A stretch of DNA of 40,461 bases, from the IMG/VR virus record IMGVR_UViG_3300046468_000948, positions 1 to 40,461 of that record; one strand, written 5' to 3'. A model generated the notes under the pieces. That model was not told the origin of the DNA and ran no database searches. It worked only from the letters and a program-made list of their open reading frames with translations. The position numbers and the translations under genes are program-made. Source of the DNA: a virus. This document shows, piece after piece, positions 4,911 through 40,061 of the stretch (the stretch's first letter is position 1; each line of letters starts with the position of its first letter).

Positions 4911-6440
4911 TTATTTTGATTTTGTAAAGACTTTTACTTTATATTTTTCCTGCCAACGTTCTGCATCTTGTTCTGTGTCTACCATTGGCTCACCTTTTAT
5001 ATTCAAACTAGTATTAAGTAACATAGGACAACCTGTATCTTTATACCATTTCTGTAGTAGTTCATATAGGCCTGGGTGTTGTTGTTTGTTAACTGTTTGT
5101 ACTCTGCTTGTATTATCTATATGAGCAATAGCAGGAAACTCTTTGGGATATCTGCATTTACTTGTGTATTGCATATAAGGTCCAACTGGTCCATCAAAGT
5201 ATTCGTGTGCAAACTCTTCCATTATAACTGGTGCAAATGGTCTAAATGCTTCTCGCTTCTTAACTGTATTAACCAAGTCTTTTACATCTGCTCCACGTGG
5301 ATCTGCTAACAAACTTCTGTTACCCAATGCTCTTGGTCCAAACTCTGCTTGTCCATTTGCTACTCCAACTAATCTATTTGTTTTTAGTTCTTGTAGCAAT
5401 TCTTTAACCGGATAGTCTCCTCTAATGTTAAAACCTAAATAAGGACCTTTCCATTCAATGAATGTTTTGTATTTTGCAAGTACTGCTCCCAAACTGCTAC
5501 CAGCATCACCTGGGTTTGGCATTATCCAAACGTTTCCATCATAGGCTTCGTGTGCAATACTGTTGGCTACACAATTTAATGCACAACCTCCCATTACAAC
5601 TAAATTCTTACTGTTAACAAGTTTGCGAGTTTCTTTTACTATATGATTGAATACATATTCATAAACAATTTGTGTACCTGCTGAAATATCTGCATAGTCT
5701 TTTATTTTGTTTAATTCAGGTCTCCACCAACGACAACCTCTGTGTAGATTGTGTTTGAACTTGACTTTTAATGATCCATCTTTTAGTGGATAAAAGAAAT
5801 CATCATATATTTCTTTGTGTAATCTTTTAGGATCTCCTAATGCGGCCCAGCCCATTAAAATATACTCTTCTTCGTTTGGCTTTAGTCCTACTCGTTGTGT
5901 CATAGCTGAGTACCACAAGCCTAAACTGTGGGGATAGCTTTGACTGTAAACTTTTTTAAGTTTGGTTCCTACGCCATGCCAAACGGTGAAGGTATCCCAT
6001 TCACCAATGCTGTCAACAACTATTACTGCGGCATCAGTGTATGGGCTAGTATAATATCCAGCCGCGGCATGACTTTTGTGATGCTCTGTACTGGTTTCTC
6101 TAGACCCTACCCAAGGATAGAGTATAGATTCCTTGACATACCCTGGTAGGTAACTGCTCACTGATGGTTTCCGCAGAGCTGTTTTCCATTGTCTTGCCCA
6201 AAGCTGTCTAGTTCTTTTGTTGAGGTCTCTTTCGTAATACACAACTTCATTAGGAAGCCTAGCTCCATTGTGTGCTATCGCTTGTTGGAATATATCATGA
6301 CTTAATAGTTTGTCGTTTTTAATCCTAGAGCTACGTTCACCATGTGCGGCAAACACTAGATCTAATTCACTATTATTTTTGTTAAAAACACTGATACTAC
6401 TATCATGGGTGCCAACATTAATTCCCCATATGGTATTCAT
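4911..6440 (-). CDS. NodU/CmcH-family carbamoyltransferase
   Basis: 509 residues from the ATG at 6440. An in-frame start at 6506 would add 22 residues but lies upstream of likely promoter elements, and only the ATG at 6440 gives the usual N-terminus WGINVGTHDSSISV. The N-terminal Kae1-like domain has the EHHKSHAAAGYY metal/His motif; the C-terminal YrdC-like part has GRAEFGPRALGNRS-type residues (here AEFGPRALGNRSLL) and ADPR. The family transfers carbamoyl from carbamoyl phosphate, usually to a hydroxyl on a sugar or antibiotic. Marine T4-like phages often carry one, and a phage member carbamoylates 5-hydroxymethylcytosine in DNA. Target here unknown. First gene of the leftward cluster. Confidence 0.85.
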   Translation of the reverse strand: MNTIWGINVGTHDSSISVFNKNNSELDLVFAAHGERSSRIKNDKLLSHDIFQQAIAHNGARLPNEVVYYERDLNKRTRQLWARQWKTALRKPSVSSYLPGYVKESILYPWVGSRETSTEHHKSHAAAGYYTSPYTDAAVIVVDSIGEWDTFTVWHGVGTKLKKVYSQSYPHSLGLWYSAMTQRVGLKPNEEEYILMGWAALGDPKRLHKEIYDDFFYPLKDGSLKVKFKHNLHRGCRWWRPELNKIKDYADISAGTQIVYEYVFNHIVKETRKLVNSKNLVVMGGCALNCVANSIAHEAYDGNVWIMPNPGDAGSSLGAVLAKYKTFIEWKGPYLGFNIRGDYPVKELLQELKTNRLVGVANGQAEFGPRALGNRSLLADPRGADVKDLVNTVKKREAFRPFAPVIMEEFAHEYFDGPVGPYMQYTSKCRYPKEFPAIAHIDNTSRVQTVNKQQHPGLYELLQKWYKDTGCPMLLNTSLNIKGEPMVDTEQDAERWQEKYKVKVFTKSK

Positions 6441-6472
6441 TCGAAAAGCCTTTTCTCTTTTAATTATAATTG

Positions 6473-6506
6473 TATTTATTATAACATACTTTAACAAATT
6501 ATGCAA
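6473..6506 (-). promoter_or_regulatory. Composite promoter for the 593-6440 gene cluster
   Basis: On the minus strand TATAAT (6483-6478) is preceded at 17 nt by TTGCAT (6506-6501), giving a perfect -10 and a weak -35. A late-type AATAAATA (6480-6473) overlaps the -10. The untranslated leader then holds GAAAA-GGC-TTTTC, a small inverted repeat covering a possible AAGG ribosome site. Early and late transcription of the cluster are both plausible. Confidence 0.45.
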
Positions 6507-6513
6507 CTAAATA
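6506..6513 (+). promoter_or_regulatory. Late-type promoter box ACTAAATA
   Basis: ACTAAATA matches T4 TATAAATA in 6 of 8 positions. Predicted +1 at 6519 leaves a 13-nt leader holding AGGAAA before the ATG at 6532. It drives the plus-strand SGNH/radical SAM genes, divergent from the carbamoyltransferase promoter. Confidence 0.4.
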
Positions 6514-6531
6514 GTACAGTAGGAAAAATCA

Positions 6532-7185
6532 ATGAAAAAACTAGTATTATGTGGGTGTAGTCTTGGTAGATCTTGGATGCCATACTTTGATGGATACATA
6601 CCAACAACACACGATTCAACTCCAGACAAGGATTACGAACTTGGTAATTGGAAAAAAGTAACCAGAATACAACAATCAGGTGGTACTCATGGGTTAATGT
6701 TGTATAGACTTCTTAATCATTTTCTAGTAAACGAAATCAAAGATACAACTATTGTAGTACAATTAACTGGCTATCAGAGACCATGTAATGTTAACCAATA
6801 CCTAACCAAAGAAGATAATAGTAATGAAGTTAATACTTTTCAAAACAATATAACAGACAAAAATGAATTTATTATATGTGGTAGTAAAGTATTTCCATTG
6901 GAGCACTTATCTGGAGAAGCAGATACTGAGTGTTTAATTCAAGTTCTTTGTATGCTATCAAAACTTGGTGCTAAGGTATATGTATTCAGAGGCTGGCCAG
7001 GAGTGTGCAAACCTAAAGAATGGAACCGAACAAAGACAATGCTTAAAGATGCTGGTGTTATAACTACAGAATTAGATTACTTAACATTGGCCTATAACTC
7101 AACAACAGATGATTGGCTTGACGACAAACATCCAGGTGTTAAATTAGGTTGTGAGACGTTTGATAAAATCTGGAAAAGGTTGTAA
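6532..7185 (+). CDS. SGNH/GDSL-like hydrolase-fold protein
   Basis: 217 residues. The N-terminus KKLVLCGCSLGRSW places a Ser in a G-x-S turn after the first beta-strand, where SGNH hydrolases carry their nucleophile. The C-terminus DDKHPGVKLG supplies the D-x-x-H pair of block V. Central strands TTIVVQLTGYQR and AKVYVFRGWPG fit the flavodoxin-like core. SGNH enzymes deacylate sugars or lipids. The Asn of block III is not obvious, so activity is uncertain. Its stop overlaps the next gene's start as TAATG, so it is made with the radical SAM pair. Confidence 0.55.
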   Translation: MKKLVLCGCSLGRSWMPYFDGYIPTTHDSTPDKDYELGNWKKVTRIQQSGGTHGLMLYRLLNHFLVNEIKDTTIVVQLTGYQRPCNVNQYLTKEDNSNEVNTFQNNITDKNEFIICGSKVFPLEHLSGEADTECLIQVLCMLSKLGAKVYVFRGWPGVCKPKEWNRTKTMLKDAGVITTELDYLTLAYNSTTDDWLDDKHPGVKLGCETFDKIWKRL

Positions 7186-7841
7186 TGTACACAAATACTA
7201 TAGAACTTGAACTAACCACAATTTGTACATTGGGTTGTCCTGCTTGTCCACGTAACTATCAAAAACATTTGAAAAAGGAATGGCATACAGGAAATATGCC
7301 ACTAGAAAAAGTAAAATGGATTGCTGACAATACAGATTTCAAAGAGTATCTGTTTGTGGGTTGTTATGGAGATCCCATATATCATCCAGATATTGTAGAG
7401 ATACTAGACTATTATAATAGTAAAGGTAAAACAGTATTCATAGAAACAAATGCTAGTAATACCAAACCAGAATTATGGAATAAGATAGCTGAATTAGATT
7501 TAAGTTATACTACCTGGACTTTTAGTGTAGATGGATTACGAGATACAAATAGTACATATCGTATTCGTAGTAATTGGAAACATATAACCTATGCAATGCA
7601 AACCATATTGGCTATGCCAGAAGAACGTAGACCATATACATTGTGGAAGTGGATTGAATTCCCTTTCAATCAACATCAAACAGACAAGGCTAAAGAACTA
7701 GCAAAGGAATGGGGATTTAATAGTTTTGAAGCTCGTAAGAGTACACGTTGGCAACCCTATCCAGAAACAACTCATAATATAGAACAATACCTATTCCCTG
7801 AAGAATTAGCTAAATGGAAAGAGCATCGTTATGGAAAATAA
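7185..7841 (+). CDS. Radical SAM core protein, separated from its SPASM-like part
   Basis: 218 residues. CTLGCPAC (about residues 14-21) is the Cx3Cx2C motif that binds the catalytic [4Fe-4S] cluster and SAM. GDPIYHPD (about 62-69) and FIETNAS (about 85-91) are later core motifs; the GGEP motif reads GCYGDP. The barrel seems to end near residue 200, with no auxiliary-cluster domain in this frame. The next gene, in the +1 frame and overlapping by 11 nt, begins with cysteine motifs expected of a SPASM domain. Either two subunits are made by coupled translation or this is a frameshifted single enzyme. Substrate unknown; SPASM enzymes commonly modify peptides or sugars. Confidence 0.75.
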   Translation: MYTNTIELELTTICTLGCPACPRNYQKHLKKEWHTGNMPLEKVKWIADNTDFKEYLFVGCYGDPIYHPDIVEILDYYNSKGKTVFIETNASNTKPELWNKIAELDLSYTTWTFSVDGLRDTNSTYRIRSNWKHITYAMQTILAMPEERRPYTLWKWIEFPFNQHQTDKAKELAKEWGFNSFEARKSTRWQPYPETTHNIEQYLFPEELAKWKEHRYGK

Positions 7842-8148
7842 AAAACTATTTCCTAGATGTCTTCTTCTCAAAGGCAATAGTGTATTTGTTGGTCCAGATG
7901 GATATCTAAAACCCTGTTGTTTTGTAAACAATGCCAGAGACTGGAATGAATTCCTATTATGGGTAAACGATAACAATCTAAATGTAGAAGATCTAAATCT
8001 ATTTGATCAAGGATTAGATAATATAAAAGCCAGTCCTACCTGGCAACTATTAAAAAAGCAGTTAGAATCAAATGACTCCAACTGCCCTAGTATTTGTAAA
8101 AGAATGTGTAGTGAGCCTACTCAAAGAAACCTACACCCTAAAGTTTAG
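7831..8148 (+). CDS. SPASM-like iron-sulfur protein, partner of the radical SAM core
   Basis: 105 residues. It opens with FPRCLLLKGNSVFVGPDGYL followed by KPCC, and ends with CPSICKRMC. This is the layout of the auxiliary Fe-S (SPASM) domain that normally sits C-terminal to a radical SAM barrel: one Cys before a D-G turn, PCC after it, then a C-x3-C-x3-C cluster. There is no barrel of its own. The ATG lies inside the last codons of the core gene. Its 3' end overlaps the end of the opposite-strand gene at 8145 by 4 nt. Confidence 0.65.
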   Translation: MENKKLFPRCLLLKGNSVFVGPDGYLKPCCFVNNARDWNEFLLWVNDNNLNVEDLNLFDQGLDNIKASPTWQLLKKQLESNDSNCPSICKRMCSEPTQRNLHPKV

Positions 8149-8520: not shown

Positions 8521-8549
8521 AGTATACAGTAAGACTTCTTACTTGTCAA
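8521..8549 (-). promoter_or_regulatory. Sigma70 promoter with operator-like spacer
   Basis: TTGACA (8549-8544), 17-nt spacer, TATACT (8526-8521); start near 8514. The spacer holds AGTAAGA-CT-TCTTACT (plus strand), an interrupted 7-bp palindrome containing AAGACTTCTT at 8531-8540. The spacer is almost identical (16 of 17) to that of the next promoter at 8856-8884. The element also covers the end of the gene at 8539-8817. Drives the 115-aa gene. Confidence 0.75.
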
Positions 8550-8855: not shown

Positions 8856-8884
8856 ACTATACAGTAAGACTTCTTGCTTGTCAA
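8856..8884 (-). promoter_or_regulatory. Sigma70 promoter with operator-like spacer
   Basis: TTGACA (8884-8879), 17-nt spacer, TATAGT (8861-8856). The spacer includes AAGACTTCTT at 8866-8875 flanked by CAGT and GCT, a near copy of the 8521-8549 spacer. Predicted start about 8849, giving a 30-nt leader to the ATG at 8817. Confidence 0.75.
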
Positions 8885-8900: not shown

Positions 8901-9152
8901 TTATTGACTTTTTTTGATCTCTTTTAGTCTAAAGAAAGCTCGTATATCATGTTTTGTAAGTCCATAAACATCTGATCCAGGTTCCAATACATCTATAATC
9001 TCCCCATCATAATCTGAGGATTCTAATTGTGATTGTGCGTCTTGTTTGCTAATAGCTTTTATATAGTGTACATCAAACATTTTGTTACTACCTGTGCTTG
9101 TAGTGGGTCTAACTCTGATCATATAGTTTTGTTTTAGTGTGTTTAGTTCCAT
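8901..9152 (-). CDS. Hypothetical protein (83 aa)
   Basis: Not recognised. Strand-helix-strand pattern: NYMIRVRPTTSTG, FDVHYIKAISKQDAQSQLES, GEIIDVLEPG, then a basic helix HDIRAFFRLKEIKKSQ. The D-V-x-Y-I-K-A-x-S-K-Q-D-A segment followed by an I-D-V strand is typical of small ferredoxin-like folds that occur as phage accessory proteins. AAGGAA sits 9 nt ahead of the ATG, and a sigma70 promoter lies at 9186-9214. Confidence 0.55.
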   Translation of the reverse strand: MELNTLKQNYMIRVRPTTSTGSNKMFDVHYIKAISKQDAQSQLESSDYDGEIIDVLEPGSDVYGLTKHDIRAFFRLKEIKKSQ

Positions 9153-9251: not shown

Positions 9252-9280
9252 TTGACAAATAACCAAACCCCTTATATATT
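9252..9280 (+). promoter_or_regulatory. Sigma70 promoter of the structured RNA
   Basis: TTGACA (9252-9257), 17-nt spacer, TATATT (9275-9280). The expected start, 7 nt on, is 9287, which is the first base of the helix that opens the structured RNA. No ribosome site or credible ORF follows for over 300 nt. Confidence 0.75.
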
Positions 9281-9286
9281 AGCTAA

Positions 9287-9622
9287 CTAGGCGGTAATAA
9301 AGAGTCTTAGCAAAGCTCGTACCTTATTCGTAAGTAAGCAACCACCGATCCTAGATATTTTATAGCACCTGGATTATATAGCAGGCCAGGAAAACCTAAT
9401 TAGCTATTATTAGGGTAATATACTAATAGTTCGTAACAATACGTGTCAGCTTACAACCGTATGTAGTGCAGAGAAGTTACCTCGAACCTATATGTCCTAC
9501 TGTTGATAGTGACCAAAGGAGCACTTTGTTATTAACAGTAGTGTTTAGGGTTTTCAACACTCAGATTGCGGGTTTATTAACCCTCCTCAATCATCTGCGA
9601 AGCACGGCTCGCAAATTTTTTC
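9287..9622 (+). ncRNA. Candidate 336-nt structured noncoding RNA
   Basis: Bounded by a near-consensus promoter and a Rho-independent terminator. Helices visible by eye run through it: CTAGG-CGGT (9287-9295) with ACCG-(AT)-CCTAG (9344-9354), closing a domain with a CTTA-TTCG-TAAG hairpin; CCTGG/CCAGG (9368-9372/9386-9390); CCTAAT/ATTAGG (9395-9400/9409-9414); CTACTGTT/AACAGTAG (9497-9504/9534-9541) around CAAAG-GAGCA-CTTTG (9514-9528); GTGTT/AACAC (9541-9545/9556-9560); GGGTT-TATT-AACCC (9570-9583). The block 9415-9496 has no clear local helix and may pair at long range. I do not recognise the class; it lacks tmRNA and tRNA hallmarks. The 60-aa ORF within it has no ribosome site. Confidence 0.65.
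9597..9621 (+). terminator. Rho-independent terminator of the structured RNA
   Basis: Stem GCG-(A)-AGC / GCT-CGC around an ACG loop, then AAA and six T residues (9616-9621). It is GC-rich against an AT-rich background and correctly oriented for the plus strand. Confidence 0.75.
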
Positions 9623-9650
9623 TTGAAGCTTTAAAACAGGGTATATAACA

Positions 9651-9658
9651 TATAAATA
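9651..9658 (+). promoter_or_regulatory. T4 late promoter TATAAATA, leaderless spacing
   Basis: Exact T4 late consensus. Five nucleotides separate it from the ATG at 9664, so the predicted +1 is the A of the start codon. No Shine-Dalgarno sequence lies between them. Confidence 0.75.
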
Positions 9659-9663
9659 ACTAT

Positions 9664-10281
9664 ATGAAGGTATACTCAGTAAGCTACAATGCAGGAACTG
9701 GTGGAACATGGCTAACCTGGTTCATCAATCAGCATAAAGGCTTTCAGAACTACGACATACAATTTAATCCTCAACAACTAGACTGGGCTACATATGATGA
9801 TCTAATGTGGTACTATGATGAAGCTGATTGGCAAACAACTGTGAAGAATAACCAGTGGAATGATAAATCAAATGTGGTGTATAAACTGTTTCCCATTCAT
9901 AATTATTATGCTATAGACCGTGACATAGAACTGATCAGTGCTAGTAATACCATAAGTCTAATAGTTCCATACGTGAATGAAGAACTCAAACAACAGTTCG
10001 TTAAAAGGAATACTGTAGCATTCAATACAACTGTAGAACGTAGTGTACTAAACCTAGATTATACTAGAATAGCCTGTACTAGCAGTGATCCAGAACGTAA
10101 TAGCTACAGTAAGTACGATGGAGTATGTGCAGTAACAACTATTGATATAGGTAAATTGCTGATGTGTAACACTAATGAATATCATCAATTGTTAAAAACC
10201 ATACATTGTGATGAGTTATCAAACTGGAAACAACTGTGTGCAAACTATAGAGATAGTGTGTTTACTGTTCCCACAAGGTAG
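9664..10281 (+). CDS. Sulfotransferase-like P-loop protein
   Basis: 205 residues. The N-terminus MKVYSVSYNAGTGGTWLTWFIN has a beta-strand followed by a Gly/Thr-rich loop and W-containing helix, as in the 5'-phosphosulfate loop of sulfotransferases (S-P-R-S-G-T-T/S-W-L). A later strand ending SLIVPYVNEELKQQF could correspond to the region before the 3'-phosphate-binding site, but the R and S residues of that motif are not evident. Possibly a divergent or degenerate PAPS-dependent enzyme; a different P-loop role is equally open. Predicted to be a leaderless late gene. A canonical sulfotransferase is encoded at 16066-16776. Confidence 0.4.
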   Translation: MKVYSVSYNAGTGGTWLTWFINQHKGFQNYDIQFNPQQLDWATYDDLMWYYDEADWQTTVKNNQWNDKSNVVYKLFPIHNYYAIDRDIELISASNTISLIVPYVNEELKQQFVKRNTVAFNTTVERSVLNLDYTRIACTSSDPERNSYSKYDGVCAVTTIDIGKLLMCNTNEYHQLLKTIHCDELSNWKQLCANYRDSVFTVPTR

Positions 10282-10340
10282 CCGGCCGACACACATACAA
10301 CACTCCCATACACTAATAGCACTATATAGAGCATATAGCA

Positions 10341-10587
10341 CCTGCAGAGCAGGTTTATTCGGGGAATAGGTATTCCCCTCTAAGGTTTGGTCTATGCTTA
10401 AATATGGCTAATATTTTTCTAAAAGCATGGTTGGCAAAGGCGTCGAAAAAAAGAAAAGGGTGGTCAAAATGTATGGTTTTTCAGTCATAATGGTTCTGCA
10501 TAGTGTCATACAGTTCATACGGCACTATATGCGATTCGCATAGCACCACCACTTCTACCGTGTATAACCGCCCTTTTACGGTGTGGT
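10341..10587 (+). other. Hairpin-rich noncoding block
   Basis: The gap 10282-10603 holds no gene I trust. Hairpins in order: CCTGC-AGA-GCAGG (10341-10353); GGGGAATA-GG-TATTCCCC (10361-10378); AAATAT-GGCTA-ATATTT inside ATGCTT/AAGCAT (10394-10428); TATGCG-ATT-CGCATA (10528-10542); and ACCAC...ACCGT pairing with contiguous ACGGT-GTGGT (10545-10587). None is followed by a U-tract. The series ends 3 nt before the late box of the next gene. It could be a 3' extension of the upstream transcript or a separate RNA; I see no promoter for it. Confidence 0.45.
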
Positions 10588-10590
10588 CTG

Positions 10591-10598
10591 TGTAAATA
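10591..10598 (+). promoter_or_regulatory. Late-type promoter box TGTAAATA, leaderless spacing
   Basis: Matches TATAAATA in 7 of 8 positions. Exactly five nucleotides separate it from the ATG at 10604, the same as at 9651, 12276, 14223 and 40061. Confidence 0.55.
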
Positions 10599-10603
10599 GT
10601 GTT

Positions 10604-10792
10604 ATGGAAGAATCATACTATATAACAGAGAATCGTAATCAGTATACACTATATAAGGATCAGTATATAGTTCTACGCAGTACGAATAAGCATCTAGTTT
10701 ATCGCTATATGTATGAATGTATGGGAGTTCCTGTTCCTGATCAATACACAAAAAAGAATAGATTTCAAGACATTTCGGTTGACAAACCCTGA
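10604..10792 (+). CDS. Hypothetical protein (62 aa)
   Basis: Starts MEESYYITENRNQYTLYKDQ. A GTG at 10583 in frame would add 7 residues but lies inside the hairpin and upstream of the late box, so I use 10604. The protein is tyrosine-rich (9 of 62), beta then helical, and ends in a basic tail. Not recognised. Predicted leaderless: no ribosome site precedes the ATG. Its 3' end overlaps the next sigma70 promoter. Confidence 0.5.
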   Translation: MEESYYITENRNQYTLYKDQYIVLRSTNKHLVYRYMYECMGVPVPDQYTKKNRFQDISVDKP

Positions 10793-10807
10793 TGTTTAGT
10801 GTATATT
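10779..10807 (+). promoter_or_regulatory. Sigma70 promoter
   Basis: TTGACA (10779-10784), 17-nt spacer, TATATT (10802-10807); start near 10814. It drives the 69-aa membrane protein at 10830 with a short leader holding GGAGAG. Confidence 0.8.
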
Positions 10808-10829
10808 ATATAGATAATAGGAGAGTATT

Positions 10830-11039
10830 ATGAGTAATATTAATTGGGCCGGTGTGGCTCAGATGATCATTGTTGTAGTAGGTGTATTATGGGCCGCGAC
10901 CATAGTGTGTTTACTGTGGGAGATCCGAGAGGCTCTAAACTATATCAGCCTTTCAACAGATGCCCAGTTTCAAATGATGGATGCTATCTGGACCGAAATC
11001 AGCTGGATGATGCAGGATCTAGGATCAGACCAGAAATAG
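10830..11039 (+). CDS. Small single-pass membrane protein (69 aa)
   Basis: Residues 8-30 (AQMIIVVVGVLWAATIVCLLW) form one strong transmembrane helix. It is followed by an amphipathic helix ending in a Trp/Met-rich segment (AIWTEISWMMQDL). GGAGAG lies 6 nt before the ATG, and it has its own near-consensus sigma70 promoter, so it is probably an early gene. Early phage membrane proteins of this type often act in exclusion or host takeover, but nothing here shows that. Confidence 0.65.
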   Translation: MSNINWAGVAQMIIVVVGVLWAATIVCLLWEIREALNYISLSTDAQFQMMDAIWTEISWMMQDLGSDQK

Positions 11040-11040
11040 G

Positions 11041-11069
11041 TTGACAATTGGTATATATTCGTATATACT
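11041..11069 (+). promoter_or_regulatory. Sigma70 promoter
   Basis: TTGACA (11041-11046), 17-nt spacer, TATACT (11064-11069), start near 11076. The spacer is AT-rich with a GTATATA-TTC-GTATATA direct repeat near the -10. It begins one base after the stop codon of the membrane protein gene. Confidence 0.8.
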
Positions 11070-11103
11070 GTAAGTATAAAGTTAACAATGCAGAGGGATA
11101 ACT

Positions 11104-11388
11104 ATGAACTGCAAATGGGACATTGAATCAGAATTAACAGAGGCCCCCGATGGCCGATATCTAATCACCACAGAAATGTTTGACTACCGCAAGGAACAGA
11201 GTCCGGATTATGTATTCGAGACCTGGACATCTCCGGTTGTGGTCACTGTGGAGAATGGTAGGATCAATAAGCAAGAAGCCTTGAAGGCGGCCGATGATCT
11301 ATTAGCACAATGTGGATATTGGGGAACCTTCTTAGAAGAATTGGAATACAAGGGTGGCACTACATTGACCGCCTCATTTGGTTCCTAG
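11104..11388 (+). CDS. Hypothetical protein (94 aa)
   Basis: Not recognised. Beta-rich N-terminus (RYLITTEMFDYR, YVFETWTSPVVVTVENGRI), then helix KQEALKAADDLLAQCG and a C-terminal strand pair. Codon use is more GC-rich than the right side of the window. GAGGGA lies 7 nt before the ATG, behind a strong sigma70 promoter, so early expression is likely. A hairpin-rich noncoding stretch follows at once. Confidence 0.6.
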   Translation: MNCKWDIESELTEAPDGRYLITTEMFDYRKEQSPDYVFETWTSPVVVTVENGRINKQEALKAADDLLAQCGYWGTFLEELEYKGGTTLTASFGS

Positions 11389-11392
11389 AGAA

Positions 11393-11618
11393 TACTAGCG
11401 GGTCTTCGGGCCTAGTACAGAGGATTGTCCCTCCTATGTGTATACTCGCAGTAATACACAACTGTACACACAATCCAGGCCATAGAGATTAACCTGGAAT
11501 ATATGTTGGTCATGTTGCTAGTGTGGCCGGTATGTAAGAACGGACTATCAACCTAAGTGTTATTGGGTTGACTCCTTAACTAACTTAGATGGCCCTGTAT
11601 GTTTGTCCGTGTACAGGG
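11393..11618 (+). other. Hairpin-rich noncoding block between two small genes
   Basis: Helices read by eye: TACTA-(GCG)-GGTC-TTCG-GGCC-TAGTA with a UUCG-type tetraloop (11393-11417); GGATTGT/ACAATCC (11422-11428/11470-11476) enclosing GTGTAT/ATACAC (11438-11443/11454-11459); CCAGG/CCTGG (11475-11479/11493-11497), alternative to the previous one at two bases; and CCCTGTA/TACAGGG (11593-11599/11612-11618). No U-tract terminator is seen. It would form the 3' part of the transcript from 11041-11069 and the leader of the membrane protein gene at 11645. A cis-regulatory leader or trans-acting RNA are both possible. Confidence 0.45.
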
Positions 11619-11644
11619 TCATCGCACGTAGGATATATACTGTT

Positions 11645-11866
11645 ATGAATTGGGATGTAGAAGACTATAGGAACAAGGGAGAACCACCAGCTTGGATGGA
11701 GTGGACTCCTATTAGCAGTATAGCATATCTTGTACAGTGGTTCATGTATATATGGCTGGTTCCTTTTGCTCTAGGACTAGCATTAACACCCATGGGCATA
11801 CTGTTTACCACAGTACTGTTAGATTGGTTTCAGTATAGACGTGCAATCAGTAATGGTCATTACTAA
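11645..11866 (+). CDS. Small membrane protein (73 aa)
   Basis: From ATG 11645 (MNWDVEDYRNKG). The frame is open from 11603, but the upstream part overlaps the CCCTGTA hairpin and starts with GTG-type codons only; AGGATA lies about 9 nt before the ATG. Two apolar helices, about residues 24-42 and 44-60 (WFMYIWLVPFALGLALTP, GILFTTVLLDWF), with a basic end. Function unknown. Confidence 0.5.
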   Translation: MNWDVEDYRNKGEPPAWMEWTPISSIAYLVQWFMYIWLVPFALGLALTPMGILFTTVLLDWFQYRRAISNGHY

Positions 11867-11918
11867 AAAACTCAACAATATCAAACACTTATAGAGAATA
11901 ATTAAACCTTTGGTTGAA

Positions 11919-12092
11919 GATCAAATTTTTATTTTGATCGCATGGTCAGGGGGTTGTCTAATGGCACAGCTAGAGGTCGGTGAAATTCTGGCCAGGGGCC
12001 CAACGAATTTTTGGATTTTTTCCCATTTTCTACACAAGGTCAATCTGTGTACAACGTAGGGTTGCCGGATCCACTATGGGAAATCATAGTGG
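11919..12092 (+). other. Noncoding block with several hairpins (gap 11867-12288)
   Basis: About 420 nt without a credible gene. It contains GATCAAA/TTTGATC (11919-11939), TACACA/TGTGTA (12031-12036/12046-12051) and a perfect CCACTATG-GGAAAT-CATAGTGG stem (12071-12092). T-rich and A-rich tracts follow at 12011-12020, 12102-12110 and 12123-12130, but none sits directly behind a stem as a terminator should. From 12093 to 12275 I see only short CACTATA-type words and no clear structure. The gap ends in the late box of the next gene. Confidence 0.4.
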
Positions 12093-12275
12093 CACCACTG
12101 TTTAAAAAAATTACGCACAGCATTTTTTTCACAGATCTGCTACAAGGTCTTTCCATATAGTATCACTATAAGCTACTGTACACACTATACGCATACTGTT
12201 GACTTTGAACTCTACAGTTAATATCAACAACTTGTACGTTAGTTATAAACAGTTTTAACTTACCAAGACATCGTG

Positions 12276-12283
12276 GTTAAATA
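12276..12283 (+). promoter_or_regulatory. Late-type promoter box GTTAAATA, leaderless spacing
   Basis: Matches TATAAATA in 6 of 8 positions, with five nucleotides to the ATG at 12289. No ribosome binding site is present in between or just upstream. Confidence 0.5.
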
Positions 12284-12288
12284 ATGCT

Positions 12289-12660
12289 ATGGATTCGAAC
12301 ATATACATATACGGACTTAAACAAAATCACAACTTGATTAAACCCAAGCAGGAATACAGCTATGACTATATACTCAAAGATGCAGTACGTAGTGTTAAAG
12401 CTAAATGGGCTATTACGCCGTTTAACAACAACGATGTACTGGAGTATAAGGTAGCTTGTAGGGAGTTTGGACGTCCACTAGAAATGGTACATCATCATTG
12501 GAATTCAATAATGGATGTAGAACGTCTATGGTATATAGTGGAGCATATGGACTGGAGATATGCTCAAGAATCAAGTCATCACAAGTATCGTAACTGGTAT
12601 GACAGTTACTTCAAAGATATATATAGTTTAGAGGATTGGAATCGTATAACAGGACTATAG
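12289..12660 (+). CDS. Hypothetical protein (123 aa)
   Basis: Not recognised. Rich in Tyr, Trp and His (MVHHHWNSIMDVERLWYIVEHMDWRYAQESSHHKYRNWYDSYF is split by charged turns), mainly helical, no membrane segment. The His-Asp spacing HHHW...D...EH...D could bind metal, but there is no family match I know. Predicted leaderless late gene. A 9-bp hairpin overlaps its stop codon. Confidence 0.5.
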   Translation: MDSNIYIYGLKQNHNLIKPKQEYSYDYILKDAVRSVKAKWAITPFNNNDVLEYKVACREFGRPLEMVHHHWNSIMDVERLWYIVEHMDWRYAQESSHHKYRNWYDSYFKDIYSLEDWNRITGL

Positions 12661-12686
12661 GGCATACTGTTACATACGCCCTATAG
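12655..12686 (+). terminator. Hairpin terminator between convergent genes
   Basis: CTATAGGGC (12655-12663, including the stop codon) pairs perfectly with GCCCTATAG (12678-12686), loop ATACTGTTACATAC. It is followed by CACGTTTT on the plus strand, a short, offset T-tract. It lies between the plus gene ending 12660 and hsp20 ending 12709 on the minus strand. Confidence 0.55.
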
Positions 12687-12708
12687 CACGTTTTATGATC
12701 GAGAAGTC

Positions 12709-13149
12709 TTACTTGATTTCAATAGTTTTAGCTCGTTTAGCTTCTGGAATAATACGTTCCATGCTAACCTTAAGCAGTCCATCTTTCAATTCAGCACCTG
12801 TAATTTCTACATCGTCAGCTACTGTGAACACTTTACTGAACATACGTTGTGATATACCTTTGTGCAGTACATCATCCTTGTTGGTATCTTTAGCTTCTTT
12901 CTCTTTACTCTTGATAGTAAGCAGGTTATTTTCATAAGCTACATCAATATCATCTTTAGAGAAGCCAGCTAGTGCTACTTCAATGTCGTAAGTATTGCTA
13001 CCAGTCTTTACGATGTTGTATGGTGGGTAGTTTACTTGAGGTACTTGAAACACTTCATTGTCAAACATTGACTCAAAGTGATCAAATATGTTATCGAAAC
13101 CTACAGTTACAGGACGTAACTGGTTAAAAATAGATAAATGTTTATTCAT
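12709..13149 (-). CDS. hsp20: Small heat shock protein, Hsp20/IbpA type
   Basis: 146 residues, the usual length. The N-terminal arm (FDHFESMFDNE) leads to an alpha-crystallin domain starting YDIEVALAGFSKDDIDV (about 54-70), with the NLLTIKSKEKE strand, an F-x-K-x-F stretch and the A-x-L-K-D-G-L-L-K-V-S motif (about 120-130). A C-terminal IEI (I-x-I) motif docks neighbouring subunits. It is an ATP-independent holdase; marine T4-like phages commonly carry one, possibly for capsid or tail folding or host stress. AAAGGAG is 8 nt before the ATG. Both an early- and a late-type promoter lie upstream. Confidence 0.9.
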   Translation of the reverse strand: MNKHLSIFNQLRPVTVGFDNIFDHFESMFDNEVFQVPQVNYPPYNIVKTGSNTYDIEVALAGFSKDDIDVAYENNLLTIKSKEKEAKDTNKDDVLHKGISQRMFSKVFTVADDVEITGAELKDGLLKVSMERIIPEAKRAKTIEIK

Positions 13150-13186
13150 CTTTATACTCCTTTATTAAGCAAGTTAATTGTTATTA

Positions 13187-13207
13187 GTAGACCCTAATGG
13201 CATCTAC
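13187..13207 (-). other. Hairpin at predicted 5' end of late hsp20 mRNA
   Basis: GTAGA (13207-13203) pairs with TCTAC (13191-13187), with CC/GG possible inside the ATTA loop. Its first base, 13207, is exactly the +1 predicted from the GATAAATA box at 13220-13213. Confidence 0.5.
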
Positions 13208-13212
13208 AGTAT

Positions 13213-13220
13213 TATTTATC
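13213..13220 (-). promoter_or_regulatory. T4-type late promoter GATAAATA for hsp20
   Basis: 7 of 8 match to the T4 late consensus. Predicted +1 at 13207 coincides with the leader hairpin. The start codon lies 58 nt downstream, behind AAAGGAG. Confidence 0.6.
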
Positions 13221-13234
13221 ATAACACTATATAT

Positions 13235-13262
13235 AATATAAGCATTATTTACAAAAAGTCAA
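13235..13262 (-). promoter_or_regulatory. Sigma70-like promoter for hsp20
   Basis: TTGACT (13262-13257), 16-nt spacer, TATATT (13240-13235). An 18-nt reading to TATTAT is also possible. Upstream of the late box, so hsp20 may be transcribed throughout infection. The noncoding stretch 13263-13397 behind it holds AAAAAATTTTTT (13365-13376), a CACTATA-type repeat near 13310-13336 and nothing I can call a gene. Confidence 0.5.
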
Positions 13263-13397
13263 GGGCCAATTGACATCTTTTTTAACGTGACCCTACTATA
13301 TGTGCCTGTGTTCACTATGGCACTATACGTATTCGAAAGTTTACAAAGTTTACAAATGTAAGTGAAAAAATTTTTTAAGCTGAGCTTCGCTGAAATT

Positions 13398-13756: not shown

Positions 13757-13785
13757 AATATACACTAATCAAGACGTCTTGTCAA
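13757..13785 (-). promoter_or_regulatory. Sigma70 promoter overlapped by a perfect operator palindrome
   Basis: TTGACA (13785-13780), 17-nt spacer, TATATT (13762-13757). CAAGACGTCTTG (13770-13781), a perfect 12-bp palindrome, overlaps the -35 and the first half of the spacer. Its core AAGACGTCTT fits the AAGA-NN-TCTT elements in the promoters at 8521 and 8856. Confidence 0.75.
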
Positions 13786-14222: not shown

Positions 14223-14230
14223 CATAAATA
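14223..14230 (+). promoter_or_regulatory. T4-type late promoter CATAAATA, leaderless spacing
   Basis: 7 of 8 match; five nucleotides to the ATG at 14236. No ribosome binding site. Confidence 0.65.
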
Positions 14231-14235
14231 CTAAT

Positions 14236-14805
14236 ATGAACAATAGTGTTAGTAATAAGAAAACAATACTATTACGTAGAAACAATCCACCATTCAAACT
14301 GTTAGGAGATATTAGTTCTGATTACTGTTTACAGTTTAGCAAACACATAAAGAACTGGACTCTCCGAGACACACTTCAACTTCGTGATAGTAACAATACC
14401 GATTATGATGCAAGTAGGATAAAAGGTTACAATCATAGTAACATACAATACACTACACATCAACAACCGGAAACCACAGATTACAATCTAACCTACAGCG
14501 AATACAATCCGTTGGTAGAACACGTACAGAATGTAATTGGTAATACCTATCGTATGCGTTGGGCAAAACTAAATGCTGATACAACATTGGATTGGCATCT
14601 AGATCCACCAACAGGAGATAGGTTTGTAATTGTGGTTCGGGGTTCACATCTATGTGAGGTTAAATTAAAGGACAGGATTGAAACTCAGGAAATGCTTCCT
14701 GGTGAGGTTTGGTATCTAAACAGTAATTGGTATCATAGAGTAATTAATCCCAATACACAAGATAGGTATGCTATACTAGGTTGTTTTGATTTTAATCATA
14801 GATAA
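14236..14805 (+). CDS. Aspartyl/asparaginyl beta-hydroxylase-like 2OG-Fe(II) oxygenase
   Basis: 189 residues. LDWHLDPPTGDRFVIVV (about residues 118-134) gives the H-x-D facial dyad and the strand leading to 2-oxoglutarate binding. GEVWYLNSNWYHRVINP (about 155-171) supplies the distal His, followed by RYAILGC with the Arg that would bind 2OG. This is the double-stranded beta-helix order of the Asp/Asn hydroxylase family. Such enzymes hydroxylate protein side chains; phage relatives have unknown targets. Predicted leaderless late gene. Its 3' end overlaps a 34-aa gene on the other strand. Confidence 0.7.
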   Translation: MNNSVSNKKTILLRRNNPPFKLLGDISSDYCLQFSKHIKNWTLRDTLQLRDSNNTDYDASRIKGYNHSNIQYTTHQQPETTDYNLTYSEYNPLVEHVQNVIGNTYRMRWAKLNADTTLDWHLDPPTGDRFVIVVRGSHLCEVKLKDRIETQEMLPGEVWYLNSNWYHRVINPNTQDRYAILGCFDFNHR

Positions 14806-14896
14806 AAGGATCTTTCTTTTGTATCTCTTTTAATCTACGTTTCATTCTTCTACGATATTTCCAAGCATGATATTTTTCTAATATCCATTTAAACAT
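14792..14896 (-). CDS. Small basic protein (34 aa), last gene of the modification operon
   Basis: Found by direct reading. It begins MFKWILEKYHAWKYRRR and ends KKDPFIYD, with 12 Lys/Arg. The ATG overlaps the radical SAM stop by 8 nt, with GGAAGGG about 8 nt before it, so translational coupling is likely. The RLKEIQKKDPFIY ending resembles short basic proteins I associate with marine T4-like phages. It overlaps the hydroxylase gene's end on the plus strand by 14 nt. Nucleic acid binding is plausible from charge only. Confidence 0.55.
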   Translation of the reverse strand: MFKWILEKYHAWKYRRRMKRRLKEIQKKDPFIYD

Positions 14897-16073
14897 TTGA
14901 GTTTCCCTTCCATGATTCCATATAGTGTAACAGCTCTGGACAACTTGAACCTATGTCTTGATTCCTACTGCTATCAACTTTACTAGTGAAGTCAACAAAC
15001 TCAGCTCTCAACTGTGATTGCTTGTGTCGATCAACTTTTCTAGTTAACATATGTATCACTTGATTGTATCCATCATCTTGATTGTTGTATGGTTTTAATT
15101 GTTCTACATATTTTTGTTTAACTTCTGTTGGCAGTAAATCTATACAAAGGTGTTCTGGAGTGTACAGTACATTACTATATATCACTTTATCTATTCCTTT
15201 GCGTTTGCACCATTCAAGTGTTTGTGCTAGATTGTCTATTGTGTAGATGCTGGTTGTAATACTTACGTGTGTCTTATCTCTAAAGTTTTCCAACAAACGA
15301 TCTATATTGTTTTCCAATACATTCCATTTGGTTCCGTGTCTAGCATACTCTGCTCTAGGACCAATGCAGTCCATACTAACAGTAACACCAACGTGACCAG
15401 TAAACTTCTTCCACTCATCTATTGCGTCTCTGCCTTTGTAATCAAGTTTAAGCATATTGGTATTGTATCTTAACTGTACATCTGATCTATTGTTATCCAA
15501 TAGCATTTGTAATATAACCCAATGGGTATCGTTTATCAAAGGCTCACCACCTGCCCAGTATACCAACTTAACGTCTTTGATATTTTTTCTAAATGTATCT
15601 ATAATATCCTGTTGTTTTAGTTCACCTACCTTTAGAACACTCTTATCACTTACAACAGGATTGAATTGTTGTAGCTCTGGATTCTTTTTTACTTCTTGAT
15701 TCCACATACTACTACAAAACGTACCACACATCCTACAAGCCATGTTACACAAGTTACTATCTCTAATGTCCCACAACACTATAGTATTTGTTTCTTCAGT
15801 GGTGTGTGTTTGATGTTTGCGGTTTAGTTCACTGCTATTGATATTGGTTCTACTGCTAGGCAACCCAACATTCTCTTTACGCCAACACCTTTCACATACT
15901 TTTGGTTGTTCGTTGTTTAGTAATTCTTTTCGTATAATTTTCATTTGTTTACTATTTGCAAAGTCTTGTATACTATTAAACTTACCAACAGGTGTCATAT
16001 CACAACAACTGCTATACTGACCTTTGGGGTTTATGTAAATACCTTCCCAAGCATACAAACAAAAATTATTCAT
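14889..16073 (-). CDS. Radical SAM protein with N-terminal cysteine (twitch/SPASM-like) module
   Basis: 394 residues. The N-terminal 65 residues carry a C-x16-SCC cluster (YSSCCD) and CERCWRKE, an auxiliary Fe-S-type module placed before the barrel. The core has CNMACRMC (about 112-119), the Cx3Cx2C motif, then YWAGGEPL (about 172-179), the SAM-binding GGEP, and VSMDCIG near 232. It ends in a helical tail with SCPELL. Family members (twitch/SPASM radical SAM) generate a 5'-deoxyadenosyl radical to modify peptides, sugars or cofactors. It overlaps the sulfotransferase gene by 8 nt. A paralogue with the same architecture is encoded at 17655-19199. Substrate unknown. Confidence 0.8.
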   Translation of the reverse strand: MNNFCLYAWEGIYINPKGQYSSCCDMTPVGKFNSIQDFANSKQMKIIRKELLNNEQPKVCERCWRKENVGLPSSRTNINSSELNRKHQTHTTEETNTIVLWDIRDSNLCNMACRMCGTFCSSMWNQEVKKNPELQQFNPVVSDKSVLKVGELKQQDIIDTFRKNIKDVKLVYWAGGEPLINDTHWVILQMLLDNNRSDVQLRYNTNMLKLDYKGRDAIDEWKKFTGHVGVTVSMDCIGPRAEYARHGTKWNVLENNIDRLLENFRDKTHVSITTSIYTIDNLAQTLEWCKRKGIDKVIYSNVLYTPEHLCIDLLPTEVKQKYVEQLKPYNNQDDGYNQVIHMLTRKVDRHKQSQLRAEFVDFTSKVDSSRNQDIGSSCPELLHYMESWKGNSNV

Positions 16074-16776
16074 TGTAGTTTACCATATCTCCTTCTAGTG
16101 TAGCTCTACCATGCAAGTCCTTGTCAGCTTGTTCATATGCAGAACGTAACTCGCTTAGGTTAACTATTACACTTTCTTTGTCTGGACTTTTCTTTACAGT
16201 ATTCTCCAATACCAATCTATTGCCAGTTATACTCTCATACAGGTCGCTTGGGTTATCAGTTAGTTCTTCAGTAAATATTATTTGATCAGGTTTGATATTA
16301 AAGTCGTTGTCTCCCCACAAATGATTAATGTTTCTTATTTGTACATCAAGCGAATTAAGAAACAACGGTGTATCTATAGTAACTTTAGTATCATCAAGAT
16401 CGTTTATCCATTGATTCTTATGAGTACTGATAGCTAAACTCAATGCACTCTCCCACAAGTTCTTTCGTAACAATAAAATATTATAGTGAGAGTTTTGATT
16501 TATTTCATGCCACCATCCCATTTCATTTGCGTTAAGCAAATCAATTAGATGAAATTTTGAAACACAATAGCTTTTAGGAAATATATTCCAACGTGTTCGC
16601 ATATCGTTGTTACGTCTAAATGGTTCACTTCCGTAACGTCTATGATTAAATTCTGTAGAATACTCTGGGTATTCAGATACAAGTCCAGTAATTATATTAT
16701 GAAAAACAAATGTACTTCCACTTCTTGGAGATCCAAAAACTGTTATATTGTTGTGTGTTTGACTAGGGGAGAACAT
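16066..16776 (-). CDS. Sulfotransferase (PAPS-dependent type)
   Basis: 236 residues. TVFGSPRSGSTFVFH (about residues 12-26) is the 5'-phosphosulfate-binding P-loop (SPRSGST), and ILLLRKNLWESALSLAIS (about 97-114) is the 3'-phosphate-binding motif with R and S positions in order. DQIIFTEEL matches the later strand that holds substrate residues. The family transfers sulfate from PAPS to hydroxyls or amines on sugars, lipids or proteins. It overlaps the SGNH gene by 14 nt and the radical SAM gene by 8 nt, so it acts with them. The APS-kinase-like protein at 3057-3503 could supply PAPS. Confidence 0.75.
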   Translation of the reverse strand: MFSPSQTHNNITVFGSPRSGSTFVFHNIITGLVSEYPEYSTEFNHRRYGSEPFRRNNDMRTRWNIFPKSYCVSKFHLIDLLNANEMGWWHEINQNSHYNILLLRKNLWESALSLAISTHKNQWINDLDDTKVTIDTPLFLNSLDVQIRNINHLWGDNDFNIKPDQIIFTEELTDNPSDLYESITGNRLVLENTVKKSPDKESVIVNLSELRSAYEQADKDLHGRATLEGDMVNYNE

Positions 16777-17662
16777 TTATATTCTCCAAATAAGGTATTA
16801 ACTGTGAATCAACATATTCTTTATAAAGTTCAGCACTATAATGACCTCCTGGACAATGTCTATTAATATTATACTTGTCTAAATTTTTAAATGCATCACA
16901 AAAGCCAGGAGCCATTGTTGGTGTAATATATTGGTCAACTGTATCAAGAATATTATGATGCTGATAAAAAATTGATTCGTCTAGCGATCCTTTTATATAA
17001 TTAAAACTCTTTCCACTATGCCATACGTCTTTGCTAAAGTTATTCATAGGGTCTACAAATACTAAATCAGCTCCTCTACTAACAACTAATTGTATAATAG
17101 CTCTCATATAAGCAAATGTTTCTAATACCAGTGCAGTACTATCGTTACCTAGTTCTAAGTCTAACAACTTATATTTTTTTAGGTCCGTATGGCCTTGTAC
17201 AAATGAATTCATACTTGTGATATAACCTGCTTCTGGTTGCCAAGGATTCTGATAATAACTTTTTCTAGTAGGTGCAGTAATTCCACATATAACCAAAGTA
17301 CCTTTGTTTATTCTGTATAACTGTTCTATAACTTTATAAAATATAATATTGTTGCTACTACCATTGAGTGCATGATTAGAACAAGGCACATCTAGTTTAC
17401 TGGCTAATACATTTCCTATGCTATTTGCATTACAGTTTTCTTTTTCATTTGGATCCAATGTTTCTAAAAAAGTAAACCATTTATAGTTATTATAATTCAT
17501 TCTAACTTTTCCGGAGTCACCGTTTTCTGTAATCTGTTTAAACTCTGATCCTGTAGCTTCTTTAAATTGTTTATGGAAGTCTTTGTTGTTAACAAAGTTA
17601 GTATAGTTTGTTTCGTGTCCGTACATAAAGCTATCACCAAATACTATAATGTCTTTAACCAT
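16763..17662 (-). CDS. SGNH/GDSL hydrolase family protein
   Basis: 299 residues from the ATG at 17662, chosen over 17668 because AAGGAG has better spacing. IIVFGDSFMYGHE (about 5-17) has the GDS nucleophile of block I. NHALNGSSNNIIFYKV gives the G and N of blocks II-III. NRHCPGGHYSAELY (about 268-281) supplies the His of block V, with the Asp position less clear. Central strand TLVICGITAPTR fits the fold. Likely removes or transfers acyl groups (acetyl, for instance) on a glycan. Sits between the radical SAM and sulfotransferase genes and overlaps both. Confidence 0.7.
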   Translation of the reverse strand: MVKDIIVFGDSFMYGHETNYTNFVNNKDFHKQFKEATGSEFKQITENGDSGKVRMNYNNYKWFTFLETLDPNEKENCNANSIGNVLASKLDVPCSNHALNGSSNNIIFYKVIEQLYRINKGTLVICGITAPTRKSYYQNPWQPEAGYITSMNSFVQGHTDLKKYKLLDLELGNDSTALVLETFAYMRAIIQLVVSRGADLVFVDPMNNFSKDVWHSGKSFNYIKGSLDESIFYQHHNILDTVDQYITPTMAPGFCDAFKNLDKYNINRHCPGGHYSAELYKEYVDSQLIPYLENINVLP

Positions 17663-19199
17663 AACCATTCTCCTTTTTACAAAACTCTACAAATCCTTTT
17701 AGCTCAGGAAACACAGAAACAAAATCTTTATTTCTACGTCTACTATTTTCTATAACCCACTGATAGAATCTCTTTCTATCACGTTTTCTTTCAGGGCTGT
17801 CATTGTATCTTACGTGTATCATTAAATCAAATACAATTCTTTTAAACTTATCAATCTCGTTAGCAGTAAACGCAATGTTATCATTCCAACCTGGGAATAC
17901 TGCATGGGCTATCATATAATCTAAAGCAGGCACAAGATAATCCTCAACTATATCTTTTGTTAAGTTTCTTGCGTCTAAAAATTCTGGGTGTCTAACGTAT
18001 GGAGTATCAATACCAACTCTTTCAAAACTTTTCTTTGTTGGTCTTTCGCTTTGTGGATTAGTTACTGTTTCAAACTTACCTAAGTCAATTAACGTCTCGT
18101 CTTTAATCCAATATTGTATGTTACAACTATTGTACTCTTGTTTAAGAGTAAACACATACTCTAAGAACGTTTTAAATGTTGGAGCACTTAATAAATTAAA
18201 TGCACTCATGAATGTTACTCTAGTATCTTTGGTATTATCTAAAAAGTATTTTACGTTATGAGTAAACTTATTCCAATCCATTCCATCTCTAATATAATTA
18301 CATTGTTCACCTGTTGCTTCTGCACTAGTAAACAATATAAACTTCTTAATACATTTGTTGCTTACCAATTGGTTAACTTTATCAACAAAACGTAACCATA
18401 GCTTGTCAGGAACACCTGCGTTGCTGTTTACAGCAAATTCTAAATCTGGATTTGGATTTTCTAACAAGTAATCTATAACCTTAAACGTATGTTTACTCAT
18501 TAGTGGCTCGCCGCCTGTAATTCTAAAGGTATGCATATTGTCTTTGGCTTTTGGAAACCATTCCCAAAATGCATCTGTATAAGGATTGTCTTCGCTGTTT
18601 TTAAAATGAGTTTGTACGTCTTGTCCACCATTGAACAACATTTTTTCTAACTTATATGGTCCGTGTTGTTTTATTTCTTCTACCCATTTAGTACTGAAGT
18701 TAGGACCGCAGTAAGCACATTTAAAGTTACACACATTGCTAAAACTTACTTCAACATAACGTGGGTAAACATCTTCGTGTCCTTTTAGTTTACTAATATC
18801 ATCGTGATCATCAATACTAAAGCTGTCTATACTTTTATATACTCTATCGCTGTATGTAGTTTTAGTACCGTTGTCTTCTACTCTCCAACAGTAGTCACAC
18901 TCTTTGGGACGCTCTCCATTGAGCATCTTTGTACGTTGTTGTTTTTTAAAACCAGTATTGTGTAACGCACTTGGATTATTTTTTAATTCTTCTAATGGAA
19001 TTTTATGAGGACTAGGGTGATGGCAACTGTGTGTTAAGCCATTGCCTAAATGCATAGTAACTTGAGTCCACTTGGCCAAACAGAATCCAGGGCCAGTCTG
19101 GTCCAGCAGTTTCTTCATACTGCTTTTGGTTTTATCGTTGACTGCTACTCTTCCTTGTTTGTCCGGAAATAATCCTGCATCATTAAGGGTTCTGGCCAT
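17655..19199 (-). CDS. Radical SAM protein with N-terminal cysteine (twitch/SPASM-like) module
   Basis: 514 residues. The N-terminal module has CLAKW, SCHHP and CDYCWRVEDNGTKTTYSD, paralleling the one at 14889. The core motif is CNFKCAYC (about residues 152-159); FRITGGEPLMSKHT (about 223-236) is the SAM-binding GGEP stretch. FAVNSNAG and FLFTSAEATGEQ are later barrel strands. The C-terminal 100 residues are helical and rich in Lys/Arg (ERKRDRKRFYQW). It is preceded by a 14-nt gap with an AGGATG ribosome site and overlaps the SGNH gene downstream. Substrate unknown; peptide or sugar modification is the family norm. Confidence 0.8.
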   Translation of the reverse strand: MARTLNDAGLFPDKQGRVAVNDKTKSSMKKLLDQTGPGFCLAKWTQVTMHLGNGLTHSCHHPSPHKIPLEELKNNPSALHNTGFKKQQRTKMLNGERPKECDYCWRVEDNGTKTTYSDRVYKSIDSFSIDDHDDISKLKGHEDVYPRYVEVSFSNVCNFKCAYCGPNFSTKWVEEIKQHGPYKLEKMLFNGGQDVQTHFKNSEDNPYTDAFWEWFPKAKDNMHTFRITGGEPLMSKHTFKVIDYLLENPNPDLEFAVNSNAGVPDKLWLRFVDKVNQLVSNKCIKKFILFTSAEATGEQCNYIRDGMDWNKFTHNVKYFLDNTKDTRVTFMSAFNLLSAPTFKTFLEYVFTLKQEYNSCNIQYWIKDETLIDLGKFETVTNPQSERPTKKSFERVGIDTPYVRHPEFLDARNLTKDIVEDYLVPALDYMIAHAVFPGWNDNIAFTANEIDKFKRIVFDLMIHVRYNDSPERKRDRKRFYQWVIENSRRRNKDFVSVFPELKGFVEFCKKENGYG

Positions 19200-39670: not shown

Positions 39671-40048
39671 TTAAATCTCTGCGTCCTGTTCCCTATCGAA
39701 CTTAATTTGCAAATCTATTGCTGTTGTAGTAGGTAGGTATGTTAAATTTACATTAACTGTAACATAATGGTCATCTTGTACTACACGAACATTTGTATCG
39801 TTAACTGTAAAACGAGGATCGTAGTTTACTACAGCAAATACTTCATTGCGTATAGACTCAATAGTATCATCATCTAATGGTTCAAATACATAAAAAGGCA
39901 AGTCACAACCAAAAGTAGGGTCGGTCCACTTCTCTCCTTTACGTATATGAAAATGGTTTAACAGGTCACGTTTAGCTAGTTCAAGACCAGAAAGTCCCTT
40001 GCTAGTATAAGCCTGTTCAACTGTTGTATATCCTATAATCTCGCTCAT
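39671..40048 (-). CDS. gp25: Baseplate wedge protein gp25 (GPW/gp25 family)
   Basis: 125 residues. LAKRDLLNHFHIRKGEKWTDPTFG and LPFYVFEPLDDDTIESIRNEV followed by YDPRF match the GPW/gp25 family, including its E-W-x-D-P-x-F-G pattern and the central acidic helix. It forms the inner baseplate core that starts sheath polymerisation. Length fits (T4 gp25 is 132). The late promoter CATAAATA ends 5 nt before the ATG, so it is predicted to be translated from a leaderless late mRNA; no ribosome site is seen. Confidence 0.9.
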   Translation of the reverse strand: MSEIIGYTTVEQAYTSKGLSGLELAKRDLLNHFHIRKGEKWTDPTFGCDLPFYVFEPLDDDTIESIRNEVFAVVNYDPRFTVNDTNVRVVQDDHYVTVNVNLTYLPTTTAIDLQIKFDREQDAEI

Positions 40049-40053
40049 ACAAC

Positions 40054-40061
40054 TATTTATG
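40054..40061 (-). promoter_or_regulatory. T4-type late promoter CATAAATA of gp25, leaderless spacing
   Basis: 7 of 8 match to TATAAATA. Exactly five nucleotides (GTTGT) to the gp25 ATG at 40048. It heads the baseplate transcript. Confidence 0.7.

Follow-up and report, generated by a model that had tools for sequence, protein, structure and literature searches.

A candidate stand-alone structured RNA, bounded by a promoter and a terminator, in marine T4-like jumbo phages

The interval at positions 9252-9621 of the IMG/VR virus record IMGVR_UViG_3300046468_000948 (the window, 40,461 nt) probably holds a gene for a structured RNA that is expressed early, stands alone, and acts in trans, in a lineage of marine T4-like jumbo phages. 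Comparison with homologues in other viral contigs shows an independently evolving element, composed of its own promoter, a folded core (P1, P2, P4, P5, and P7), a variable 3' domain, and a terminator. As would be expected of a stand-alone structured RNA gene, the promoter and terminator are kept in the homologues, compensatory changes keep the helices, and there is no conserved reading frame. An earlier note on this DNA had proposed a new structured RNA encoded between a promoter and a terminator of its own. The kept boundaries, the compensatory changes in two lineages, and the lack of a conserved frame and of any Rfam or ARAGORN match all agree with that proposal.

Boundaries and homologues of the RNA

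The transcription unit is delimited by the following predicted features.

9252-9280 (+): sigma-70-type promoter, TTGACA-N17-TATATT; 100% identical in the close homologue L005, with equal spacing and another spacer sequence in the distant homologues L102-L104
9286-9621 (+): structured RNA of ~333-336 nt, predicted start at 9286/9287, delimited by sequence comparison
9596-9621 (+): intrinsic terminator, hairpin 9596-9613 and T run 9616-9621; hairpin unchanged in L005

The promoter is present where it had been proposed, with TTGACA at 9252-9257, a spacer of 17 nt, and TATATT at 9275-9280. Exact matches to TTGACA-N17-TATAWT occur four times in the 40 kb, the promoter of the RNA being one of them. 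The first base of P1, C9287, lies 35 nt after the start of TTGACA, and this distance, which is the same in 5/5 members, is consistent with the earlier placement of the RNA start at the first base of a 9-bp helix. The proposed terminator was likewise recovered as a hairpin followed by a T run, giving a predicted RNA of ~333-336 nt. In L102-L104, the RNA ends in its own hairpin and TTTTT. Promoter, start distance, and terminator are thereby kept in all five members.

The four homologues comprise one close relative (L005) and three distant, near-identical ones (L102-L104). The close relative belongs to the syntenic contig IMGVR_UViG_3300026292_000623 (L004/L005), which was found with a divergent 83-aa gene as probe. 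Related contigs (80 in all) were collected with the baseplate protein (36568-39669) as query, and a distant homologue was identified in a 121-kb contig (L092/L102) by a DNA search of 50 records. Two independent DNA patterns, taken from different domains, both returned the same four true members, including L103 and L104 as new ones; the other loci that they matched were chance hits as judged by the covariance model. L006-L010 were chance matches of one DNA probe, for which L005 was the sole true match in viral contigs. A relaxed DNA pattern and a genome scan added no members, and BLASTN against phages and plasmids returned no match to the element. Covariance models R1 and R2 recovered no further member from the related contigs or from six cultured jumbo phages, the latter having been scored with Infernal's stricter filters, under which weak matches could be missed.

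The five sequences form two lineages, A (the window and L005; ~335 nt) and B (L102-L104; ~275 nt), and the cores of A and B are ~59% identical to each other. Between the window and L005, identity is 100% in the promoter, 94.4% in the core, and 93.3% in the 3' domain. The surroundings are less alike: the upstream spacer is 87.9% identical, the flanking genes are 80.6% and 83.8% identical, and the stretch that follows the terminator is 71.8% identical. The RNA is thus more conserved than its flanks, and at the DNA level it is more strongly constrained than the coding DNA beside it.

Folding and covariation of the core

The single-sequence fold of the RNA (-78.1 kcal/mol) is not better than that of shuffled sequences (-74.3 kcal/mol, z -0.73), and so the helices claimed by eye are not significant on their own. 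The predicted helices and domains, with the changes observed among the homologues, are as follows.

9287-9354 (+): P1 domain, helix 9287-9295 / 9344-9354 enclosing P2 and P3; two compensatory pairs (A-U to G-C, G-C to U-A)
9302-9318 (+): P2 hairpin with the invariant loop UAGCAAA; compensatory changes in two pairs, of which one already separates the window from L005
9323-9334 (+): P3 hairpin with a UUCG loop in the window; present in both groups, without covariation
9335-9339 (+): 5' strand (UAAGC) of a possible pseudoknot with partner 9449-9453; both strands invariant in 5/5 members, without covariation
9368-9390 (+): P4 hairpin, CCUGG/CCAGG; three compensatory pairs (CUGG/CCAG in the window, CGUA/UACG in L102)
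9395-9414 (+): P5 hairpin, CCUAAU/AUUAGG, with the palindromic loop UAGCUA; five pairs changed on both sides, all pairing
9433-9480 (+): P6 helix, GUAAC 9433-9437 with GUUAC 9476-9480, enclosing P7; P6 invariant
9439-9443 / 9458-9462 (+): P7 helix, with GCUUAC 9449-9454 in its loop; one compensatory and one G-U change
9484-9554 (+): 3' domain, a long group-specific hairpin predicted by folding; this domain differs and is shorter in the distant group

P1 consists of 9 bp with a 2-nt bulge (CUAGG-CGGU / ACCG-AU-CCUAG). Between the lineages, P4 changes from CCUGG/CCAGG to CCGUA/UACGU, with three pairs compensated and one lost, and P5 changes from CCUAAU/AUUAGG to GCAGUA/UACUGU. For the covariation analysis on homologues that the earlier note had suggested as a check, we used a hand alignment of the core (A4), which respects both folds and was built with the structure in mind, gaps being entered as N. 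Under a 41-pair structure that includes the pseudoknot, 99.2% of the cells are paired, and in 13 pairs both bases are replaced with pairing retained, compared with a mean of 4.5 after shuffling (0/500 shuffles reach 13). The covariation score is 0.439 versus 0.193, and sliding the partner by 1-3 columns lowers the paired cells from 99% to 20-42%. In a blind MAFFT alignment, which was not fitted to the structure, six double changes are kept. Relative to column shuffles, the consensus fold has a z of -4.4 on the hand alignment, and of -2.3 (three sequences) and -3.0 (two sequences) on MAFFT alignments.

The covariation is seen in P1, P2, P4, P5, and P7, with only two independent lineages behind it. 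The earlier count of at least seven further helices therefore stands in part: P2, P4, P5, and P7 are backed by covariation, whereas P3, P6, and the pseudoknot show no changes and support for the 3' hairpins is confined to the close pair (the window and L005). Being invariant, P3, helix P6 (GUAAC/GUUAC), and the pseudoknot GUAAGC/GCUUAC are compatible with the fold and may form part of it. The minimum-energy fold of the window core instead combines GGUAAU/GUUACC with the GUAAGC/GCUUAC helix and breaks P1; this alternative pairing of GGUAAU with GUUACC has lower energy and competes with both P1 and P6.

The RNA also has short invariant unpaired stretches, as a base-pairing regulatory RNA would if its exposed conserved stretches paired with host or phage messengers. 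By eye, UUACCUC could pair with ribosome binding sites resembling GAGGUAA. However, such small RNAs are usually smaller and conserve a seed rather than a multi-helix core, and we consider a base-pairing role rather unlikely for this element.

Neighbouring genes and other non-coding elements

Two genes flank the RNA in the window.

8901-9152 (-): divergent gene for an 83-aa protein without a family match; the L004 protein is 79% identical
9664-10281 (+): downstream gene for a 205-aa protein, with its own late-type motif TATAAATA at 9651-9658; not beside the RNA in L102-L104

The structured RNA, its terminator, and the 205-aa gene follow one another on the same strand, 42 nt separating the T run from the ATG. 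This arrangement could also fit a leader acting in cis, namely a riboswitch or attenuator that regulates the downstream gene through its terminator. However, the gene that follows the RNA differs, being the 205-aa gene in lineage A (window, L005) and a gene for a DUF2061 membrane protein in lineage B (L102-L104). Further, the late-type TATAAATA between the terminator and the ATG of the 205-aa gene is its only exact copy in the window, where 9.7 would be expected, and L002 and L003, which carry relatives of the 205-aa protein, contain no such RNA. The constant link to one downstream gene or function that would mark a riboswitch or cis-acting leader was not found. With different genes downstream in the two groups, and a separate late-type promoter for the 205-aa gene, the RNA is unlikely to be a leader or riboswitch. 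The 205-aa family (9664-10281) has the N-terminal motif GTWLTWFINQHxGF and is present twice in tandem in L002 (2297-3675); the window copy has no Pfam or PHROG match.

The TTGACA-type promoter class is common to the RNA and to small genes at 8145, 8539, 10830, 11104, and 13445. A TAAATA-type late motif precedes the 205-aa gene and a gene of the structural region (39671-40048), beside the baseplate gene. The earlier suggestion that the RNA is probably early would fit the promoter class of these nearby small genes, as opposed to the TAAATA late motif used elsewhere. In several genes, TAAATA is located 5-6 nt before the ATG (9651-9658, 10594-10605, 12279-12289, 14225-14236, and 40049-40060 (-)), suggesting a T4-like late promoter almost on the start codon and implying leaders that would be very short or absent. 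Early-type promoters at 8521-8549 and 8856-8884 (-) share TTGACAAG(T/C)AAGAAGTCTTACTGTATA, their spacer containing an inverted repeat, and a related promoter is found at 13757-13785. They look like an operator of a common early regulator.

In the lineage B genome G020, short matches to window positions 10766-13392 keep their strand and order, and the RNA is located beyond this block, not before it. The RNA has thus stayed within one region of these genomes while moving locally. The 221-kb relative G014 begins at the equivalent of window position 10310, so that the absence of the RNA from it carries no weight. In G022, the region is present with no detectable copy of the RNA, which may be dispensable there or too divergent for detection.

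A second conserved structured non-coding element is present at 11389-11640 (+), between two small genes, with a single-sequence fold z of -3.05 and no Rfam match. It is ~86-88% identical in the 221-kb relative (G014, L155 1210-1449), with eight pairs changed on both sides, none broken, and a consensus-fold z of -9.6. A piece of 29-47 nt from this element (a hairpin and CTCCTTAACTAACT) recurs in G020 and G022. The non-coding gap at 10285-10604 (+) has several GC-rich hairpins (fold z -1.98) and falls within a stretch that is ~80% identical in G014. The early region with the RNA and the 11389-11640 element may be a small non-coding-RNA locus. Elsewhere in this jumbo-phage contig, the stretches 4911-8148 and 14889-19199 include genes for a carbamoyltransferase and several radical SAM/SPASM proteins; in the closest cultured relatives of the contig, the baseplate protein is only 34% shared.

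Comparison with known RNAs and possible role

In agreement with the earlier note, which could not match the element to tmRNA, tRNA, RNase P, or a group I intron from visible motifs, Rfam 15 gave no family match in the window at the gathering score, and ARAGORN detected no tRNA or tmRNA. At E values up to 10, the only Rfam match to the window element was an implausible microRNA model on the other strand, and a permissive search with the distant homologue L102 returned only another microRNA model. The GOLLD and ROOL family models gave no match, assuming that both are in the Rfam library searched. No retron, IscB/TnpB, or type III toxin-antitoxin partner gene was identified with PADLOC and Pfam among ten genes around the RNA of the window and of L102.

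To our knowledge, structured RNAs of ~335 nt from phages are few, and most have no assigned function. 6S RNA is a stand-alone, trans-acting RNA that forms one long rod with a central bubble, whereas the window RNA has a multi-hairpin core and no Rfam match. The T4 RNAs C and D are stable non-tRNA transcripts with unknown roles, and their likeness to the window RNA is that they come from a T4-like phage. They are smaller than the window RNA and are located in a tRNA cluster, and they were compared with it here through Rfam only.

GOLLD and ROOL, for which profiles have been taken from Rfam (PMC12286853), are stand-alone, highly structured phage or prophage RNAs with pseudoknots, no coding capacity, and unknown function (PMC12286853). 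The window RNA resembles them, its own pseudoknot being only possible. However, they measure ~600-800 nt or more and frequently lie close to tRNA genes (PMC12286853), whereas the RNA described here is ~275-336 nt across the lineages and matches nothing in Rfam, and the window has no tRNA gene. The kind of element, a stand-alone phage structured RNA of unknown role, is thus known from GOLLD and ROOL (PMC12286853), and the family is new. The wcaG, manA, glnA, and abiF regulatory RNAs, found through Rfam in T4-like cyanophages, are also structured RNAs carried by marine T4-like phages (PMC9964418). Three of these four are cis-regulatory. The window RNA, in contrast, has a promoter and a terminator to itself and neighbours that vary, and no Rfam family matches it.

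Like OLE, ROOL, or GOLLD, the RNA could form a homo-oligomeric assembly through kissing loops such as that of P5. This 8-nt loop on a strongly covarying stem contains UAGCUA in the window and UAGCUG in L102, with the palindrome AGCU in both, and symmetric kissing loops with GGCC, GAUC, or AGCU palindromes have been described in OLE (PMC12286853). However, one conserved palindrome in two lineages is weak evidence, and ROOL is twice as large as the window RNA. UAGC is also present in the P2 loop, so that an internal loop-loop contact is as likely, and we regard oligomerization as improbable.

A small protein gene with incidental structure is very improbable: its 60-codon GTG frame (9466-9648), the longest one and open in the window, begins inside the RNA, crosses the terminator, has no counterpart in L102-L104, and is interrupted in L005, where a 1-nt insertion causes a frameshift that rules out the coding reading. 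The earlier description of the element as lacking a credible open reading frame was thus inexact in that this frame exists, and holds in that the frame is unconserved. The differences between the window and L005 in the RNA are distributed 8/7/5 over the three codon phases and are not codon-phased.

As an early, stand-alone, trans-acting RNA, the element would be transcribed by the host RNA polymerase early in infection, as its promoter class suggests. The core would fold compactly, and the GUAAGC/GCUUAC pseudoknot may lock it in this shape. The stretches that are both unpaired and invariant (GUAAUAAAG, UAGCAAA, AGCUUACA, and GAGAAGUUACCUC) may act in trans by binding a protein or ribonucleoprotein of the host or the phage, and such binding would favour infection. 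More tentatively, the RNA could represent a new class of phage RNAs that act in trans, as the first of them to be recognised, located in an early multi-RNA locus (with 11389-11640) of uncultured jumbo T4-like phages and serving as an RNA-only or ribonucleoprotein device that acts on host machinery. Its promoter is defined, its core is supported by covariation, and its boundaries are clear; other viromes can be searched with its model. The second conserved RNA, 2 kb away, suggests an early RNA-based module in these jumbo phages.
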